Assembly (NCBI GenBank): GCA_037976565.1
Contig: CP137682.1
Span: forward strand, 28,261,199 to 28,325,198
DNA from: Mesocentrotus franciscanus
Lineage: Eukaryota > Echinodermata > Echinoidea > Camarodonta > Strongylocentrotidae
Reading direction: 5' to 3'
Length of the DNA stretch: 64,000 bases
A program made the translations under genes and the position numbers. Numbering within the stretch: position 1 is the stretch's first letter; the number at the start of each line of letters is the position of its first letter. This document shows, in pieces, positions 1,589 to 34,326 of this stretch. The notes below the pieces were generated by a model that was not told the DNA's origin, did no database searches, and saw only the letters and a list, made by a program, of their open reading frames with translations.

Positions 1589-2866
1589 GTGAGTCTCAAA
1601 GCCTTCTTCACATATGAAACCATTAAGTGTCTTTTTTCTTTTTTTAAAATAAAAACATTGCCTTGAAACTCACTTTAAAAACCCGCCCCAATAAACCACC
1701 TAAAAAACCTTAACCTTGTCAGAAAAGAGAAATTTTATGAGTACATGAATGGCAAGTTGGGTGGAAAATAAGGGCTGGACTTAACCAAGGCTCCCCCAAA
1801 CTACTTGCTTATCTATGTGTTGGAAGATACAGAACCTTGAAGTGCATTACTCTTCCGTCACTTCATTCGGCTGCAGTGTTTTTTCCGAGATGGTTTAAGA
1901 TATCGTATGTGAAAGCAGCTACATGCATGCTGGCCATGTCTTGTGCTGTGTTCAAACTGCCTGGTGTGGATTAGGCTTTTAATAAAGGAATGATCTGTGA
2001 TTGGTCTCTTTGATAATCAATGTGTGGATCCTTTCATGGTTTCATGGTTGCCAAATTGCAGTGTGCTGTAACTACAAAACAAGACTATGTGACAGAAGAA
2101 ATTTATGAAGAGTTACTGTGTCATTAGTGATTGTTACTTTTCAATGTTTAGGAATGGATTAATTTCGGCTTTCTGGACTTTTCATTTATCAAATAATTTC
2201 TTATACATACAGGAAAAAATGTAAAGTAAATCAGTGTAACTTTATGTAGATATCTGTGAATGGAATCCATTAACAATTATAAAAAGAAAGTTCAGTTAAT
2301 GAACACGATATGGGTGTAAATACTTAAAGGCATCGTTTAACAATGTTAAATCTGAGATGCATGGCCCTACGTGTTATCAGTGTCTGTGATATGGTGTAAT
2401 ATTGAAGCCCTAAAAAAATTGCGCTTCAAAATGATCATGAAGTGCCTCAAAAAAGTAAAAATCTTTGAGTGACCGGTTTTACCATACTCATTTTCCCCAA
2501 TAGACTGTAGTGTTATATAAACCGTTAGGAAACTGAAAAATGAAATTTTGATTTGCAATCATAAATATCTTGATAATCAGACAGGCGATCGGCTTGTACA
2601 AGTCATGGGATTCCTGACTGACCTAAAGGTTTACAATTATGATTGCAGCATGAGCTAAATCCAGGATTTTGTTTCAGAATCTGAGGCAATGTTACCGAGT
2701 CACTTTAAGATGTCTGCCTCTCACATTTCTTCGCTTGGTAACATTTTGAGAGTGTATTCCCAAACTGTCTTAATCAACCTTGACTGCTCAGAAGTACTGC
2801 ATGCGCTTTGTGTGATCCATTGAAATATTTTGTCGTGATGTCTCTCCTTCCCTGACTAACATACAG
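1589..2866 (+). other. Liprin-beta intron
   Basis: Begins GTGAGT and ends CTAACATACAG; the CTAAC just upstream is a good branch-point match. Apart from AT-rich sequence nothing is recognised in its 1.3 kb. Confidence 0.8.
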
Positions 2867-2999
2867 AGCTGCCTTAAAGCCAGTCAATGGTACAATGGAT
2901 GCCAGACACAGACGAGCAAGCGCTGGAGCTCTGGGCGGAGGAGGGTTCCAAAGGTCGTATAATTCTAACGGAGAGAGCAAGAGTAAACCCACATTCAGG
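2867..2999 (+). CDS. PPFIBP1: Liprin-beta exon n-1 (basic Gly/Ser-rich tail)
   Basis: A 133 bp exon between ACATACAG and TTCAGG|GTGAGT. It enters with one base completing an Arg codon and leaves in phase 0. The 44 residues (beginning AALKPVNGTMDARHRRAS, then a Gly-rich run and SKSKPTFR) are low in complexity and basic. The end, KSKPTF, matches the position of KVKPKKLAF in vertebrate liprin-beta, just after SAM domain 3. RHRRAS looks like a basophilic-kinase site (RRxS), but this is inference only. Confidence 0.82.
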
Positions 3000-3740
3000 G
3001 TGAGTGATCATCTAAGGGCTGTACCAGCTCTGGGATGACATATTAAATGTTTAGGCAGAATAGGAACTTTAATCTTGGTAGAATAAATATAGAATAATTT
3101 TCAGTCAAATATTTCTTATAACTTCAAGTTTTTAATTTCTTGATTTATTTGTGTTCCTGTAACCTTTTACCTGAATTAAATTGAGCCCCCAAAGGATGAT
3201 TTTCAGCATGTCTGTGTGATTCAAAGAGAATAAATCATGTAACTTTTATGAGAATTTGAAGCATAACAGTATAGCATTTTTATTCTTTTCTTTAATTTTT
3301 TACGAACATTTGTGTCATATTTTGGAGAGCATAAGGGGAATAGTCTAAGACAAATGAATAAGGAAAAACAGGAAACTTGCATCAATAATCTGAAGTGTAA
3401 GAAATGAAGAATGATTTTGATATAACATCTTGTGACAAACTTCTTTTTGTAACCCTTGACCTTTTTAAACCTTGTGTGTATGCATGTGTTAGTTTGTTTG
3501 TTTGTTTGTGCAGTGTTAGAATGATTGTTTAAAGACAGTATGAGGTTGATGATATGATTGTGTGATCTGATAATATTAATGACCCCAAAACAGAGATGGA
3601 TACCTTGTTTGTGTAATTTCAAGTCTTTATTTCTTGTTATTTCTTACAGCCTTTATATCCCAATTCATGATGGTACCCAAATGCAAGTTTCCTTTATTTT
3701 CAAAGTCCTGACCATATTTCCTTTCTCCTTTTCTTATCAG
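3000..3740 (+). other. Liprin-beta intron
   Basis: Begins GTGAGT and ends TTCTTATCAG with a strong pyrimidine tract. No other features seen. Confidence 0.8.
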
Positions 3741-3878
3741 GGCTCACTTGGACGAGCTCTTGGACGGAAGCTTCGTCAGGATATGAACACTTACGGCTCA
3801 ACCTTTGGTGCCATGCCAGAACAAATCCGCTCAAAATCACGCAGCCAGGAATTCACCCAAGAGAGCACCATAGTATAG
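3741..3878 (+). CDS. PPFIBP1: Liprin-beta terminal coding exon with PDZ ligand
   Basis: This 45-codon exon follows TTCTTATCAG and ends with TAG at 3876-3878. It starts GSLGRALGRKLRQDM, which lines up with the FGNLRKKKQED region of vertebrate liprin-beta. It ends QESTIV. Thr-Ile-Val fits the class I PDZ ligand S/T-x-hydrophobic; vertebrate PPFIBP1 ends DSNV, which also fits, so the C-terminal PDZ motif seems conserved although the tail between differs. Much shorter than the vertebrate tail, so this may be one of several 3' isoforms. No downstream coding exon was found before the next gene. Confidence 0.85.
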   Translation, partial: GSLGRALGRKLRQDMNTYGSTFGAMPEQIRSKSRSQEFTQESTIV

Positions 3879-6800
3879 GGTTCTCTCGTGACACTCGCCA
3901 TGTGGTATTTTGCAAAGACTATACCATGGCTGACTTAAAGACCTATTTTGCCTTTTGTGTGGATATTAGGAATGACTCCAGATTGTGCTATATGTTGTGT
4001 GGAGGTGAACAAACTATTGACAAAGCCAGGAGGAATATAGAAACACTTGCCAGAATGGAAGAAGATGACTGCATTTTTGTATCGGGAGAGAAAGATTTCA
4101 TTCATAAGAAACTGGGATGGTAGTGCTGATTTATGGAAGAGCAGAGCAGAAATGGAAACAATATTCTAAGTTGCCAATTTGAAGATTGCATCGATTAAGA
4201 TGTGTGGGACATAGCAGTGATGGAGTGGGATTCCAATGAAGATGCAAAAAAGGAGGAGAAATGGAGCATTAAAGGATTATATGAATTTGAAATAATTGGA
4301 AAGTATCGGAAGCCATCAAATGAATTTCACCGTATTGAGAGAAGCAGTAGAGGGACAGCAATTCTGCAAACTGTTTACTAGTCAAAGCCCTAAGCCACTT
4401 TGATGATCATGCAGACTATACACAAATTAAAATTGAATGATAATCTGTCTTCAGTTTAGCATTTGTAATGCAACCTACATGTGTATGAATCACATTGATA
4501 ATAAAGTATAGGAATGGAATGATCATGGCACAAACTATCATCTTGGACTTGTAGCCTGGACTTATAGCCTACATGAACATGTATGTGACTACTCCCACCC
4601 AAAGAACATTAGATACATGTTAGTTGTTATCTCAGGATGTATTCATAGTCTTCATCTCCAGGTGTTTTATCAAACAAAAGGTCTAATTTGAATACTACTT
4701 TCATCTTTTAGACTTACGATCCAGATACTTAATTCATCTGTACATACAGAGATTATCATCTATGCAGTTTATTGTTGAGAGTTGTGTCGTGTGAATAATA
4801 ATTTGCAGAGTATTATATTTGTTGGATGATTGAGTTTATATTTTGACTGCCAAAAATAAAATGGAGTGTGATGAGTGAGGTGTATAGATGGTGTCGCAAA
4901 TATTTTGGATACATTTAAACATTTGCCTGTGGGACCCGTGAGATCTTGTATTAAATCTAATGGACTGAGAGAATTCGGTCTTAAGCAATACAGAACCATT
5001 GAGATGTGATTTTTTTTATTTTAAATAAATACATTGGAAATGGGGTAAAGAAAGGTTTAAGTATCTAGAAGGTATGAGATTGACTTAAATATATTGGTTA
5101 ATCTTAATTCATTTGAAAATAAATTTCTAAATTTAAAATAGAATTAATATTGAAGCTCTGTCTTAATACTGCACTATGATTCTCTTAAAATACACGTTCA
5201 TTTGCATATTCTGTCCTTGAATCTTGAAACTTGATTTTTATCTATTAAAGTCAGCAATCAATAATGTATGACACTGGGTTAAAGTTTTACAAATTGCTTA
5301 ACCTCGCGTCTAGCTTCAAAATGTTCAATTTCTTTACAACCATCCAAATATTTGTATGTATACAGTGAGTGCTGAACATGCTAGTTGTGTGTATATATTT
5401 TGTTACATTTCAGCATTGCTAGATTTTATGTGAATTTGATGCATTTTGATTTATGTTTATGTGCAATTTACGTCTTAAGTTTGACATTGTAATATCAAAA
5501 TATTATTGTATCTAGACCTTTGTTTTTTTACACCCTGTTATGAACCATGATCCATGTTTTGAGGGGAGGTACTTTATTTTATATTGAACATTTCTTACGC
5601 CAAGGAAAGAAAAAATAGACACACTTTAATACATACACATACATTTGTAGTGAATTAAGAGAGTTCTTAATGCAGCTTGAGTCAAAGGAATTTGATTTTG
5701 TCACCCCTACTTTGCCTGTTTGAAGAGATTCATGCACATGTGTTTGCACAAGATATTTAAATTTTCTGTTTATGTGACGCTGCTGAAGTTTCAGCTGTAT
5801 TATCAAAGCACACGTTTCGTTTTCTTGACAAAAGATTATTTTCATTCTTCTGAAATTAATTTTCTGCACTTCCATGTAGACTGAGGATTAATCTAAGATT
5901 GAGTTTGTGTAGCAATAAATGTAGCAAGCAATGGTTAGCTAAACTAAGCCAGAAGTTTTTAGTAAAATATATCCTTAGATGGGTATTTCATAAGAGTCCT
6001 TTGGGGGGGGGGGGAGAAAGAACATTGAGTTCTAATGCATCTCCCTTAAATGGTCTTTCATTTGTCATGTTAACATTCAATTTCATTTTTTTCCTTTTCC
6101 AAAGAGAGCATTATTTTATTTCATATTGTCCTTCCCTTCTTTCATCTAATTGCTTTCATAAATTTTGTTTTGGTTTTTGCCTATTGTGTTGAAGATGATT
6201 TGTCTTGGGGGGTACACCATTTTTAATTAATGGGACTTTATATGTATACACACCTAAAGAGCAAATGGATTTGGATTTGTTTTGGTTTTTGCCTATTGTG
6301 TTGAAGATGATTTGTCTTGAGGGGTACACCATTTTTAATTAATGGGACTTTATATGTATACACACTTAAAGAGCAAATGGATTTGGGTTATTTTCAAAAG
6401 TGCACTGACTTTGGTGTATGCTGTCCTAATGTACAAGTCATGCATTATGATGATTTCTACAACTGCCGGAAGTAAGTGTCCGATTGTTTTTGGTGTATGT
6501 TTGTAAATTGGCAATATTTTCTGTTCTTCTCAGTGTAAAAAAATGATTGTGAGTGCATGAATTGAATTTTGAAAAATACTTGATGATTCTTATAGGTTAT
6601 TAATCAGGACTGAAGTTTCATTGCATTTTCTTCTCATTTGAAACAGATCAAGCTTTATGAAATGTATTTGTATATTTTGCACTTTGGAAAGTTTTCTTTT
6701 AGAGTGGATTTTTTTAGTTTGGTTCCATTTTTCATCATCTCATAGTATTGTATTAGAATTGTTATTTTCAAGACTTCTACAGACATTTTAGTTTTAAGAC

Positions 6801-13722: not shown

Positions 13723-14071
13723 TTATAAAGCTTTCACAAGTTCGGAAAGTATGGCGGAATGATTCTGTTCGACACTAAGCGAGGGAAGTGACAGCATGCG
13801 ATTGTTGTCACCGCGGATTGTCACGATGGCTAATTGTGACGACGGGCCACTGCTTTGCCGAGTCGACTCTAAGGACAACATCGGGAGGAGGCCCTCTGCG
13901 ACACTGTCGATCATGTATGGGTCGTCACCGGTGAGGTAGGGGTGATGGAGTGTGGGGGCAGGGTTGCCGCTGGTTGGGGTGGTGTTGTTATTGTTGTTGG
14001 AGGCGTTGGCTGCTGTTTGGGCTGCTGCTACTGCTAGCACGGCTGCTTGAGGGTTATACTCTCGCTTTGGC
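13723..14071 (-). CDS. TEAD-motif/AT-hook protein, terminal exon
   Basis: The exon follows TTTCATCAG and ends with TAA. Its first base completes the Arg of GRP, forming RRGRPKREY with the preceding exon: a canonical AT-hook (RGRP core with flanking basic residues) that binds the minor groove of AT-rich DNA. After it come NPQAAVLAVAAAQTAANAS, five Asn, a Pro/Thr-rich stretch, then a better-ordered tail with DDPYMIDSVAEGLLPMLSLE and ending LSVEQNHSAILSELVKAL. The last 60 residues have alternating hydrophobic spacing and could form helices. Composition changes sharply from low complexity to this tail, suggesting a conserved functional end. I do not recognise the C-terminal domain. Confidence 0.8.
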
Positions 14072-14508: not shown

Positions 14509-14955
14509 CTTCCTCTCCTTACAATCTTCTTTTTGCCGTCTCCATCAAACCCTTCAAAAAGCTTCGCAAGCAGCTCTGAGTTTGCTGGAGACACTCTCAC
14601 TATCCTCGGTGGGGGTCTCGGCTGTTTCTTCTTGGCCTCTGGAGGAGCTGTTTACTGGACTCCAGCCCACCCTCCTTGAGATCGCGCATCTTCTCTTTAT
14701 CCCGTGGACTCTCCTTATCCCGGCCCATATCTCTATCCCGAGGAGATAGGTCCTTTTCTCGAGGGAATAGTCTCGTTCTCTAGGGAGACCTCCCTCTCAC
14801 GCGATAAGTCTCTTTCTTTGTCTTTCTCTAGTTTGATGGATAAAGAGTCTTTGTCAATGAGGGTGTCTTTTTTCTCCTTTAACCTGACATCAGGTTGATC
14901 CCCCTCTCTGCTCTCGACATTCTCACCATCTGAGGGCGGTGTCACGGTCTGATAT
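14509..14955 (-). CDS. TEAD-motif/AT-hook protein, Lys/Glu/Arg-rich exon with frame break
   Basis: The acceptor TTCTTTCAG precedes 14955 and the donor GAGGAAG|GTATGT ends the exon. The frame starts YQTVTPPSDGENVESREG, then becomes highly charged (KDKERDLSREREVSLENE) and meets a stop at 14735-14733. A +1 frame is open from about 14782 to 14600 and continues in the same style (SPRDRDMGRDKESPRDKEKM). The original frame resumes after about 14652 with KKKQPRPPPRIVRVSPANSE and LLAKLFEGFDGDGKKK, and supplies the start of the AT-hook. Either two compensating single-base changes are present, or a 162 bp GT-AG intron (14800 to 14639) is removed, which also restores the frame. The charged region is probably disordered. 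Confidence 0.65.
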
Positions 14956-17963: not shown

Positions 17964-18513
17964 TTCTCCTCCTCCTCCTCCTTCTCCTCCTCCTCCTTCT
18001 TCTTCTTCTTCGTCTTCTTCTTCTTCCTCCTCCTCCTCCTTCTTTCTCCTACTCTAATTCCTCCTCCTCCTCCTCCTCCTCCTCCCTCCTCCTCCTCCTC
18101 CTCCCTCCTCCTCCTCCTCCTCCTCCTCCTCCTCCTCCTCCTCCTCCTCTTCTTCTTCTTCTTCTTCTTCTTCTTCTTTTTCTTTTCCTCCTCCTCCTCC
18201 TCTTCTTCTTCTTCTTCTTCTTCTTCTTCTTCTTCTTTTTCCTCCTCCTCCTCTAATTCCTCTTCCTCCTTCTCTTTCTTCTTCTTCTTCTTCTTCTTCT
18301 TATTCTTCTTCCTCCTCTTCTTCCTCCTCCTCCTCCTCCTCTAATTCCTCCTCCTCCTCTTCCTTTTCCTTTTCCTCTTCCTCTTCCTCTTCCTCTTCCT
18401 CTTCCTCTTCTTCTTCTTCTTCTTCTGCCCCTTCTCCTTCTCCTTTTCCTTTTCCTTCTCCTTCTCCTCCTTCTCTTTCTTCTTCATCTTCTTATTCTTA
18501 TTTTTCTTCTTTT
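17964..18513 (+). repeat. ~550 bp polypyrimidine (TCC/TTC/TTTCC)n tract
   Basis: Almost uninterrupted pyrimidines on the + strand: (TCC)n and (TTC)n blocks, then (TTCCTC)n and (CTTCTC)n. On the host gene's transcript this is a pure purine GGA/GAA tract. Open frames across it (poly-Ser, poly-Leu, poly-Pro, poly-Phe) come only from the repeat. Such mirror-repeat tracts can form triplex (H-DNA). Confidence 0.95.
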
Positions 18514-18539
18514 TATCAACTATTCTACTTTGAGATTTT

Positions 18540-18640
18540 TATCATAAAGTAATAACAATAATAATAAGAATAATAAACAGTGCTTATAAAGCACTTTCCA
18601 CCAAAGTCTATAAGCGCTAGTATTACGGAAATAAGCTTCT
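18540..18640 (-). mobile_element. Retroposon 3'-end fragment with (AAT)n tail (tentative)
   Basis: AATAATAATAAGAATAATAA is followed by a GCTTATAAAGCAC and TATAAGCGCT pattern. The same (AAT)n next to a TAAAGCACTT pattern occurs at 37035-37135. Such ends are common in non-LTR retroposon tails of marine invertebrates; the family is not determined. Confidence 0.35.
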
Positions 18641-22174: not shown

Positions 22175-22315
22175 CTGCCAGGTCCGAGTTGGACTGTTCC
22201 ATTTTGCAGAGGGGAGGAAGAACAGAGTACATCGAGCCAGGAGATGCTGAATTGACGGTGTTAGGCTGCTGCCAAAAGGATTGTGGGAGGGCTCGTAACC
22301 TCATCGGAATCGGTT
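22175..22315 (-). CDS. TEAD-motif protein, exon with YAP/FAM181-type omega-loop
   Basis: A 141 bp exon bounded on the - strand by TTGAACTTTTCAG and CTGGCAG|GTAAGG. With the last base of exon 34326-33929 it reads EPIPMRLRALPQSFWQQPN, then TVNSASPGSMYSVLPPLCKM. YAP's TEAD-binding omega-loop is VPMRLRKLPDSFFKPP: Met, both Arg, Leu, Pro, Ser, the first Phe and the last Pro are all kept. The second aromatic is Trp, as in FAM181A (as I recall, MRKRQLPASFWEEP). In YAP these residues pack on interface 3 of TEAD transcription factors. YAP's upstream LFNAV-type helix is absent, as in FAM181 proteins, and no WW domain is seen. Expected role: nuclear TEAD cofactor or competitor of YAP. The symbol is left open because the overall architecture does not match FAM181. 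Confidence 0.85.
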
Positions 22316-33928: not shown

Positions 33929-34326
33929 CTTTCCTGACTTTAGTTTTCATCCCACTGGGTGGCAGGACCTGGACCCCAGTCTTCTCCTCCATCGTTACCT
34001 TGGTAACAGGGTGAGAGGTCACATGACTGAGTGGCAGCACGTCCTTCATCATAGACTGTCTCTTGATCTTGCGCTTGATTCGCACATTGACCTTTGGCTT
34101 CTGTTCCTGGACCTTGATTTCTTGTCCATGGTGCTTGAACCCTGGAGGGCGCACATAGGTGGGTCCACTGGAGGTGCTGCTACAGGGGAGGGGTATCTCC
34201 TCATGGTCCGACCCCTCCCCTCGCTGGAGCTACTACCGCTCAGGGAGCATGTGGGTCCCGCTTGCCGTTGTTGGCCGACGGAGACGTCGATGATGGCTTT
34301 ACCAGCTTGTCCATGTTTCTAATCAT
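33929..34326 (-). CDS. TEAD-motif protein, first coding exon (frame disrupted)
   Basis: An in-frame TGA (34332-34330) precedes two ATGs (34326 and 34314); the frame opens MIRNMDKLVKPSSTSPSANN and stops at 34242-34240. A different frame (TCSLSGSSSSEGRGR) is open across 34255-34200. A third carries SDHEEIPLPCSSTSSGPTYV, RPPGFKHHGQEIKVQEQKP, KVNVRIKRKIKRQSMM and LPPSGMKTKVRK, to a donor AAAG|GTAGGT that joins the omega-loop exon in phase. Two missing bases would join all three. KVNVRIKRKIKRQS weakly recalls the conserved KVNHRKYLQKQIKRCS of FAM181B and may also serve as a nuclear localisation signal. The start is favoured by the upstream stop, but its link to the rest depends on the two indels. 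Confidence 0.6.

Follow-up and report, generated by a model that had tools for sequence, protein, structure and literature searches.

Finding an omega loop of the TEAD-binding YAP/FAM181 type in a single exon raises the question of which protein the loop serves. The exon lies at positions 22175-22315, on the minus strand, of a 64,000-nucleotide stretch of the Mesocentrotus franciscanus genome, the whole of which we call the window. The original prediction placed the loop in a protein other than YAP, either an invertebrate FAM181-like TEAD partner or a member of a new family competing with Yorkie/YAP.

The omega-loop exon and its gene

The feature coincides exactly with one coding exon bounded by consensus splice sites (22315-22175; acceptor tttcag/AACCG, donor GGCAG/gtaagg). 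It is 141 nt long, in phase 1 at either end, and encodes (E)PIPMRLRALPQSFWQQPNTVNSASPGSMYSVLPPLCKMEQSNSDLA(G), with all 47 of 47 amino acids the same in Strongylocentrotus purpuratus. A tblastn search with the S. purpuratus protein places this exon second in a four-exon gene that runs on the minus strand from 34314 to 13723, with 1323 nt of coding sequence in total and intron phases of 1, 1 and 2. The S. purpuratus protein, XP_800421.2 (LOC586927), is uncharacterised, carries a database name that gives no function, and is read from an unbroken frame; in a frameshift-aware alignment, 420 of 436 aligned codons are identical between the two species.

Exon 1 (33929-34314, minus strand), delimited by tblastn and the frameshift-aware alignment, contains the start codon, a conserved N-terminal block SSTSSGPTYVRPPGFKHHGQEI at approximately 34181-34116 and a basic stretch KVNVRIKRKIKRQ, and ends at the donor AAAG/gtaggt. 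Exon 3 (14509-14955, minus strand) encodes an acidic/basic stretch predicted to be disordered, followed by PPPRIVRVSPANSELLAKLFEGFDGDGKKKIVRRGR. Exon 4 (13723-14071, minus strand), identical to S. purpuratus at 111 of 120 positions by tblastn, supplies the RGRPKR end, a variable linker, GDDPYMIDSVAEGLLPMLSLE, the conserved C-terminus LPSLSVEQNHSAILSELVKAL and the stop codon. A scan of the whole window with Rfam gave no match at gathering scores. The protein models of Lytechinus (P0002) and Lottia (P0071), which apparently retain introns, both break before EPxPM, and that of Lottia breaks after the exon as well. Read from these models rather than from aligned genomes, the pattern suggests that the loop exon is an old, symmetric one.

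The loop itself, PMRLRALPQSFWQQP, scores 34.7 bits (E=1.9e-8) against the Pfam model PF15238, TEADIR3, whose curated cut-off is 26 bits; the part that Pfam assigns to TEAD interface 3, MRLRALPQSFWQQP, occupies 22263-22304 of the minus strand. The S. purpuratus protein reaches 31.0 bits, and seven of the eight family proteins scanned pass the cut-off, the one failure being P0024, which has L for Q in the loop and scores 21.7 bits. When the loop was searched against the PDB, the best match was a FAM181A peptide (6l9f_C, E=0.01) and the rest of the best ten listed were YAP chains (E 0.14-1.3). The shortness of the motif keeps these values modest, and the strength of the loop is its conservation. 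Just as predicted from the DNA, the residues corresponding to YAP Met86, Arg87, Arg89, Leu91, Pro92, Ser94, Phe95 and Pro99 are all present, and tryptophan takes the Phe96 position, the second aromatic place, as it does in FAM181A. In an alignment of 51 sequences the equivalents of Met86, Arg89, Pro92, Ser94, Phe95 and Pro99 are invariant and the Phe96 position is W throughout, while L stands at the Leu91 position in 48 sequences and F in three, and at the Arg87 position 17 sequences have R and 34 have K. Of the 77 relatives, 66 preserve the loop pattern unbroken; the remaining 11 are pieces of 168-290 amino acids.

A family separate from YAP, FAM181, PERCC1 and Vestigial

A PF15238 search of the 773-Mb, 21-contig assembly, in which 92 candidates were scored, returned five places above the cut-off and one below it. 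One of the five is the window gene, on contig C17. The YAP gene is another: it lies on contig C21 (L011), where LxxLF, the omega loop and the start of a WW domain follow one another in the same frame, the partial WW scoring 23.1 bits, below the WW cut-off of 26.9. YAP identity is rejected, as the original prediction had held it would be. The FAM181 orthologue, L013 on contig C15, has the N-terminal region, LxxLF and the loop in canonical order, and its match to FAM181B P0078 (34% over 186 aa, E=1.6e-19) covers all three elements; its loop scores 27.9 bits in the genome search and 24.1, below the cut-off, as a whole frame. A second FAM181-type gene on contig C4 (L009) combines part of the N-terminal region with the loop PLRKRRLPASFWQEP. 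The gene on contig C8 (L012) is of PERCC1 type, an assignment made by the architecture set out in passages of PMC9710580 and not by comparison with PERCC1 sequences. The place below the cut-off, on contig C6 (L014), is a loop of Vg type, with Met, Ser, Arg, Phe, Ser, Phe and Trp, the Vg residues named in the accessible text of PMC7566471. In the frames read, LxxLF stands upstream of the loop by 22 residues in YAP, 50 in the PERCC1-type gene and 30 in FAM181, once in each; the frames of L009 and of the Vg-type exon have none.

Direct comparisons gave the same separation. BLASTP of the S. purpuratus orthologue P0001 against the PERCC1-type gene produced a single match, beginning at the loop, with E=0.02-0.03, and so gave no sign of the N-terminal helix region that in PERCC1 comes ahead of LxxLF and the loop. 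A profile of 51 relatives compared with ten FAM181B sequences aligned in 25 columns, confined to the loop, at a probability of 3.6% and E=0.012. Pfam reported no WW domain in P0001 at E<=10, and the 25 WW matches listed for the genome all lie on contigs other than C17, which agrees with the prediction that the protein has none. Nor did Pfam report the Vestigial/Tdu family in eight family proteins at E<=10. Strings for the YAP helix, TONDU, the FAM181 helix and WW gave unconvincing best matches in the window.

The likenesses are thus those of parts. With YAP, TAZ and Yorkie the window gene shares the eight named loop residues and the presence of LxxLF in the same protein; it differs from them in having Trp for Phe96, in lacking any WW domain that we could find, and in both termini, the C-terminus having been predicted to be unlike that of YAP. 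Their LxxLF, moreover, precedes the loop by about 21 residues, whereas here it follows at 62-218. With FAM181A/B it shares the omega loop, including the W in the second aromatic place of FAM181A, but not the FAM181 N-terminal region (NIKLALDK...NHRKYLQKQ); the motif order is reversed, and the coding sequence is split over four exons, against a single open frame for the matched part of the sea-urchin FAM181. The suggestion of a FAM181-like protein accordingly holds for the loop and fails for the rest, the orthologue being elsewhere in the genome. PERCC1 has an omega loop and LxxLF as well, but in the opposite order, and it is reported in passages of PMC9710580 to be absent from hexapods, whereas the family of the window gene has insect members. 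Vestigial and VGLL2 have an omega loop, the second aromatic residue of which is Trp in Vg, and Vg differs in carrying a TONDU helix (VxxHF) before the loop, to which the window offers no convincing counterpart. The identities with FAM181, PERCC1 and Vg are rejected on architecture and on the presence of each loop type elsewhere in the genome. The gene belongs to none of the YAP, FAM181, PERCC1 and Vestigial families, and the alternative of a new family, raised in the original prediction, is the one that stood.

A protein search among other animals had been proposed as a check. Two such searches (at least 38 and at least 70 matches), in which only candidates sharing exact words were scored, up to a ceiling of 7992 in each, and matches without a source name were left unassigned to a taxon, yielded at least 77 distinct relatives. 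Those listed come from sea urchins, sea stars, the hemichordate Saccoglossus, Branchiostoma, molluscs, annelids, nemerteans, a bryozoan, a scorpion, crustaceans and insects; no vertebrate appears by name among them. Conversely, a search with FAM181B brought up no invertebrate by name among the best 120 of 406 matches. As far as these matches go, the family is likely to be absent from vertebrates. The named insect matches listed (P0032, P0016, P0017, P0021 and P0028) include a single holometabolan, the beetle Carabus, and flies are missing from them; some holometabolan lineages may have lost the family.

Beyond the two motifs, the relatives have further blocks in common. Of the 62 that possess both loop and LxxLF, 51 have an N-terminal Y-x-R-x-x-G-F block, 45 have a basic RGRP stretch lying 18-30 residues beyond LxxLF, and 57 end in a C-terminus of LSELV type. 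In a Pfam scan of eight family proteins, the N-terminal, RGRP and C-terminal blocks all remained without a named family; the RGRP stretch resembles an AT-hook, but the Pfam model for that motif gave no match. Two AlphaFold models for the family are mostly disordered (mean pLDDT 50 and 53). The C-terminal 36 residues, LAIVTIRGDNNRMLSLPSLSVEQNHSAILSELVKAL (13833-13726, minus strand), include the family's second most conserved block, after the loop, and are modelled as a hairpin plus helix in one of these predictions and as a helix alone in the other.

The kind of loop is already known, since Pfam recognises the motif as such; the family and the order of its motifs seem not to have been described before. 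Judged by titles and the openings of abstracts, none of the papers listed in the literature searches describes the family, and neither LOC586927 nor the loop string led to any paper. It may nevertheless have been met under another name. A gene of the annelid Urechis unicinctus labelled FAM181B is given as a top hub of a ciliogenesis module in the accessible text of PMC10380512, and this may be either a true FAM181 or a member of the window gene's family. Likewise, a Capitella 'FAM181' entry named in the PERCC1 paper, as far as its passages in PMC9710580 tell, could belong here.

LxxLF and the reversed order of the motifs

No YAP-type helix precedes the loop, as had been noted from the sequence; yet an LxxLF motif (LAKLF, 14570-14556 on the minus strand) follows it in exon 3, on the 3' side, and is a candidate interface-2 helix by its occurrence in relatives and its modelled structure. 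LxxLF is present in 62 of the 66 loop-bearing relatives, always downstream of the loop and upstream in none of the 66. As a conserved helix motif it occurs, downstream every time, in 61 of the 66, starting 62-218 residues after the start of the loop, and two bivalves show a shifted form. The sole LxxLF of P0070 is LPPLF, just past the loop, and therefore stands outside the 61; P0038, P0050, P0068 and P0071 are without the motif, P0050 having FLFKRLF in its place. The block has the consensus ANTDLLFKLFDG (17 peptides), and both AlphaFold models put a short helix on LxxLF, with a pLDDT of 68 and 72 over the ten-residue block. By chance, 5.7% of composition-shuffled family members contain an LxxLF. 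Outside the loop exon, just four columns of the 51-sequence alignment never vary: L318 and F319, which belong to LxxLF, and P435 and L447, which lie close to the C-terminus. The C-terminal block is conserved more strongly than LxxLF, so that conservation alone does not single LxxLF out.

An order of this kind departs from that of the known partners. According to passages in PMC9710580, YAP/TAZ, FAM181 and PERCC1 are homologues with consecutive interfaces 2 and 3 in common, and in the portion of that paper available to us no member with the reverse order is described; in Vg and VGLL2, too, the helix precedes the loop (PMC7566471, in part). Spacing does not stand in the way. The interface-3 pocket is given as about 18 Å from the end of the interface-2 helix in passages of PMC10146773, and the shortest linker between loop and LxxLF, at about 47 residues, is therefore long enough for the reversed order.

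Our preferred reading, to which we assign a probability of roughly 0.6, is that the gene's product is a TEAD co-regulator of a bilaterian family, so far uncharacterised, whose two docking sites come in reversed order, loop first and LxxLF second. This nuclear gene would encode a largely disordered transcriptional co-regulator whose family stands apart from YAP/TAZ, FAM181, PERCC1 and Vg/VGLL. The omega loop of exon 2 would fit into the interface-3 pocket of TEAD/Scalloped through the residues that YAP uses, and the LxxLF helix downstream would fill the interface-2 groove, so that the grip would be two-pointed as in YAP, with its elements in reverse order. Such a protein would compete with YAP/Yorkie and Vestigial for TEAD because these occupy the same TEAD sites, and a prerequisite for competition with Yorkie/YAP is that the protein occupies the TEAD pocket which they use. 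Isolated omega loops bind TEAD weakly (Kd 58 µM for YAP 85-99, from the accessible text of PMC7566471), so a protein that lacked a functional second site might bind too feebly to have an effect. The parts of this reading are not equally firm: the gene, its loop, the conservation, the motif order and the separation from the other families are observations, whereas docking on TEAD, co-regulation and competition are proposed. TEAD binding through the loop, in one form or another, appears very probable; the assignment of LxxLF to interface 2, which we infer from its pattern and position, is the weakest step. For a bilaterian co-regulator family, apparently without vertebrate members, with a permuted, loop-first order and the loop on its own phase 1-1 exon, we see an even chance.

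The chief alternative is that the protein binds TEAD through its loop only and that LxxLF is a transactivation helix or a docking helix for another partner. FAM181A is reported, in passages of PMC10146773, to sit on TEAD at interface 3 only in its crystal structure. The LxxLF block of the window gene (NTDLLFKLFEGIEE) is acidic and amphipathic, a character that many activation helices have, and a PDB search with the profile built from 17 LxxLF peptides retrieved no chain at E<=10, whether of YAP or of any other protein. L-x-x-L-F is, on the other hand, the exact YAP pattern, and in the frames read a single LxxLF occurs in each of three further omega-loop genes of the assembly; we regard loop-only binding as a serious minority view, clearly less probable than two-site docking. 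More remote is the idea that the likeness of the loop is convergent, the protein not binding TEAD at all and the motif serving some other partner. Other blocks of the protein are strongly conserved too, as convergence would allow, but at most of its TEAD-contact positions the loop does not vary among the 51 aligned relatives, the exceptions being the Arg87 (R/K) and Leu91 (L/F) positions, and in the search of its own genome the loop scores on a par with that of YAP (34.9 versus 34.8 bits), which makes convergence improbable.

A rearranged invertebrate FAM181 orthologue, finally, would account for the FAM181A peptide being the closest in the PDB and sharing the position of Trp. A paper of 2021, as far as its accessible text goes, moreover applies the name 'FAM181 domain' to the part of YAP that binds TEAD, a usage suggesting that PF15238 formerly bore that name. 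This reading is already largely refuted: the canonical-order orthologue and the second FAM181-type gene lie on other contigs, and the profile comparison with FAM181B extends over the loop only. We hold it to be very improbable.

Invertebrate TEAD output is usually ascribed to Yorkie, Vestigial and Tgi. If the co-regulator reading is true, interpretations of Hippo read-outs in sea urchins, molluscs and many arthropods have left out one old, strongly conserved component, and the sites of Yorkie/YAP and Vestigial have a further competitor in invertebrates. To our knowledge no TEAD partner of reversed topology has been known before, and this one would be the first. If the reversed order is real, the two TEAD pockets require no fixed chain direction, which would matter both for the evolution of TEAD partners and for designing TEAD inhibitors that engage two sites.

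Frame breaks and surroundings of the locus

Relative to the S. purpuratus frame, the gene in this assembly has lost single bases at six points, two in exon 1 (34260-34259 and 34222-34221) and four in exon 3 (14944-14943, 14786-14785, 14766-14765 and 14647-14646); no break occurs in exon 2 or exon 4. At four of the six points there is a G or C run at least three bases long, and the other two points are at or next to CC doublets. We consider the breaks probably errors of the assembly consensus.

Whether the locus is instead a decaying pseudogene is a question apart from the function of the family. Six one-base breaks across two exons would suit decay, as would the finding that no more than four of them are at G/C runs of three or longer. 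A damaged copy has also to be reckoned with because four other omega-loop genes of the genome, with open frames of 180 to 531 aa, are without any break. All six breaks are, however, losses of a single base at G/C-rich spots, along a path with no other stop; the splice sites are intact, and the near-complete codon identity with S. purpuratus persists, a pattern that consensus error explains better than neutral decay. The coding-like ORFs on the plus strand at 2.8-4.4 kb change frame too, so that this stretch of the assembly may be locally poor. On balance a pseudogene seems unlikely.

Those plus-strand ORFs, at 2856-4378 and in several frames, are probably exons of one gene; they matched no Pfam family above cut-off, and one of them, searched against the PDB, gave no match. 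Intron 2 of the omega-loop gene contains a long simple-sequence tract (18050-18550), several frames of which are open and read poly-Ser or poly-Glu. From 41000 to 64000 the window is occupied by a repeat array of long period (about 1.6 kb) with AG/GA tracts and recurring ORF pieces, one 20-bp unit of which is found at 13 places between 42032 and 63724.
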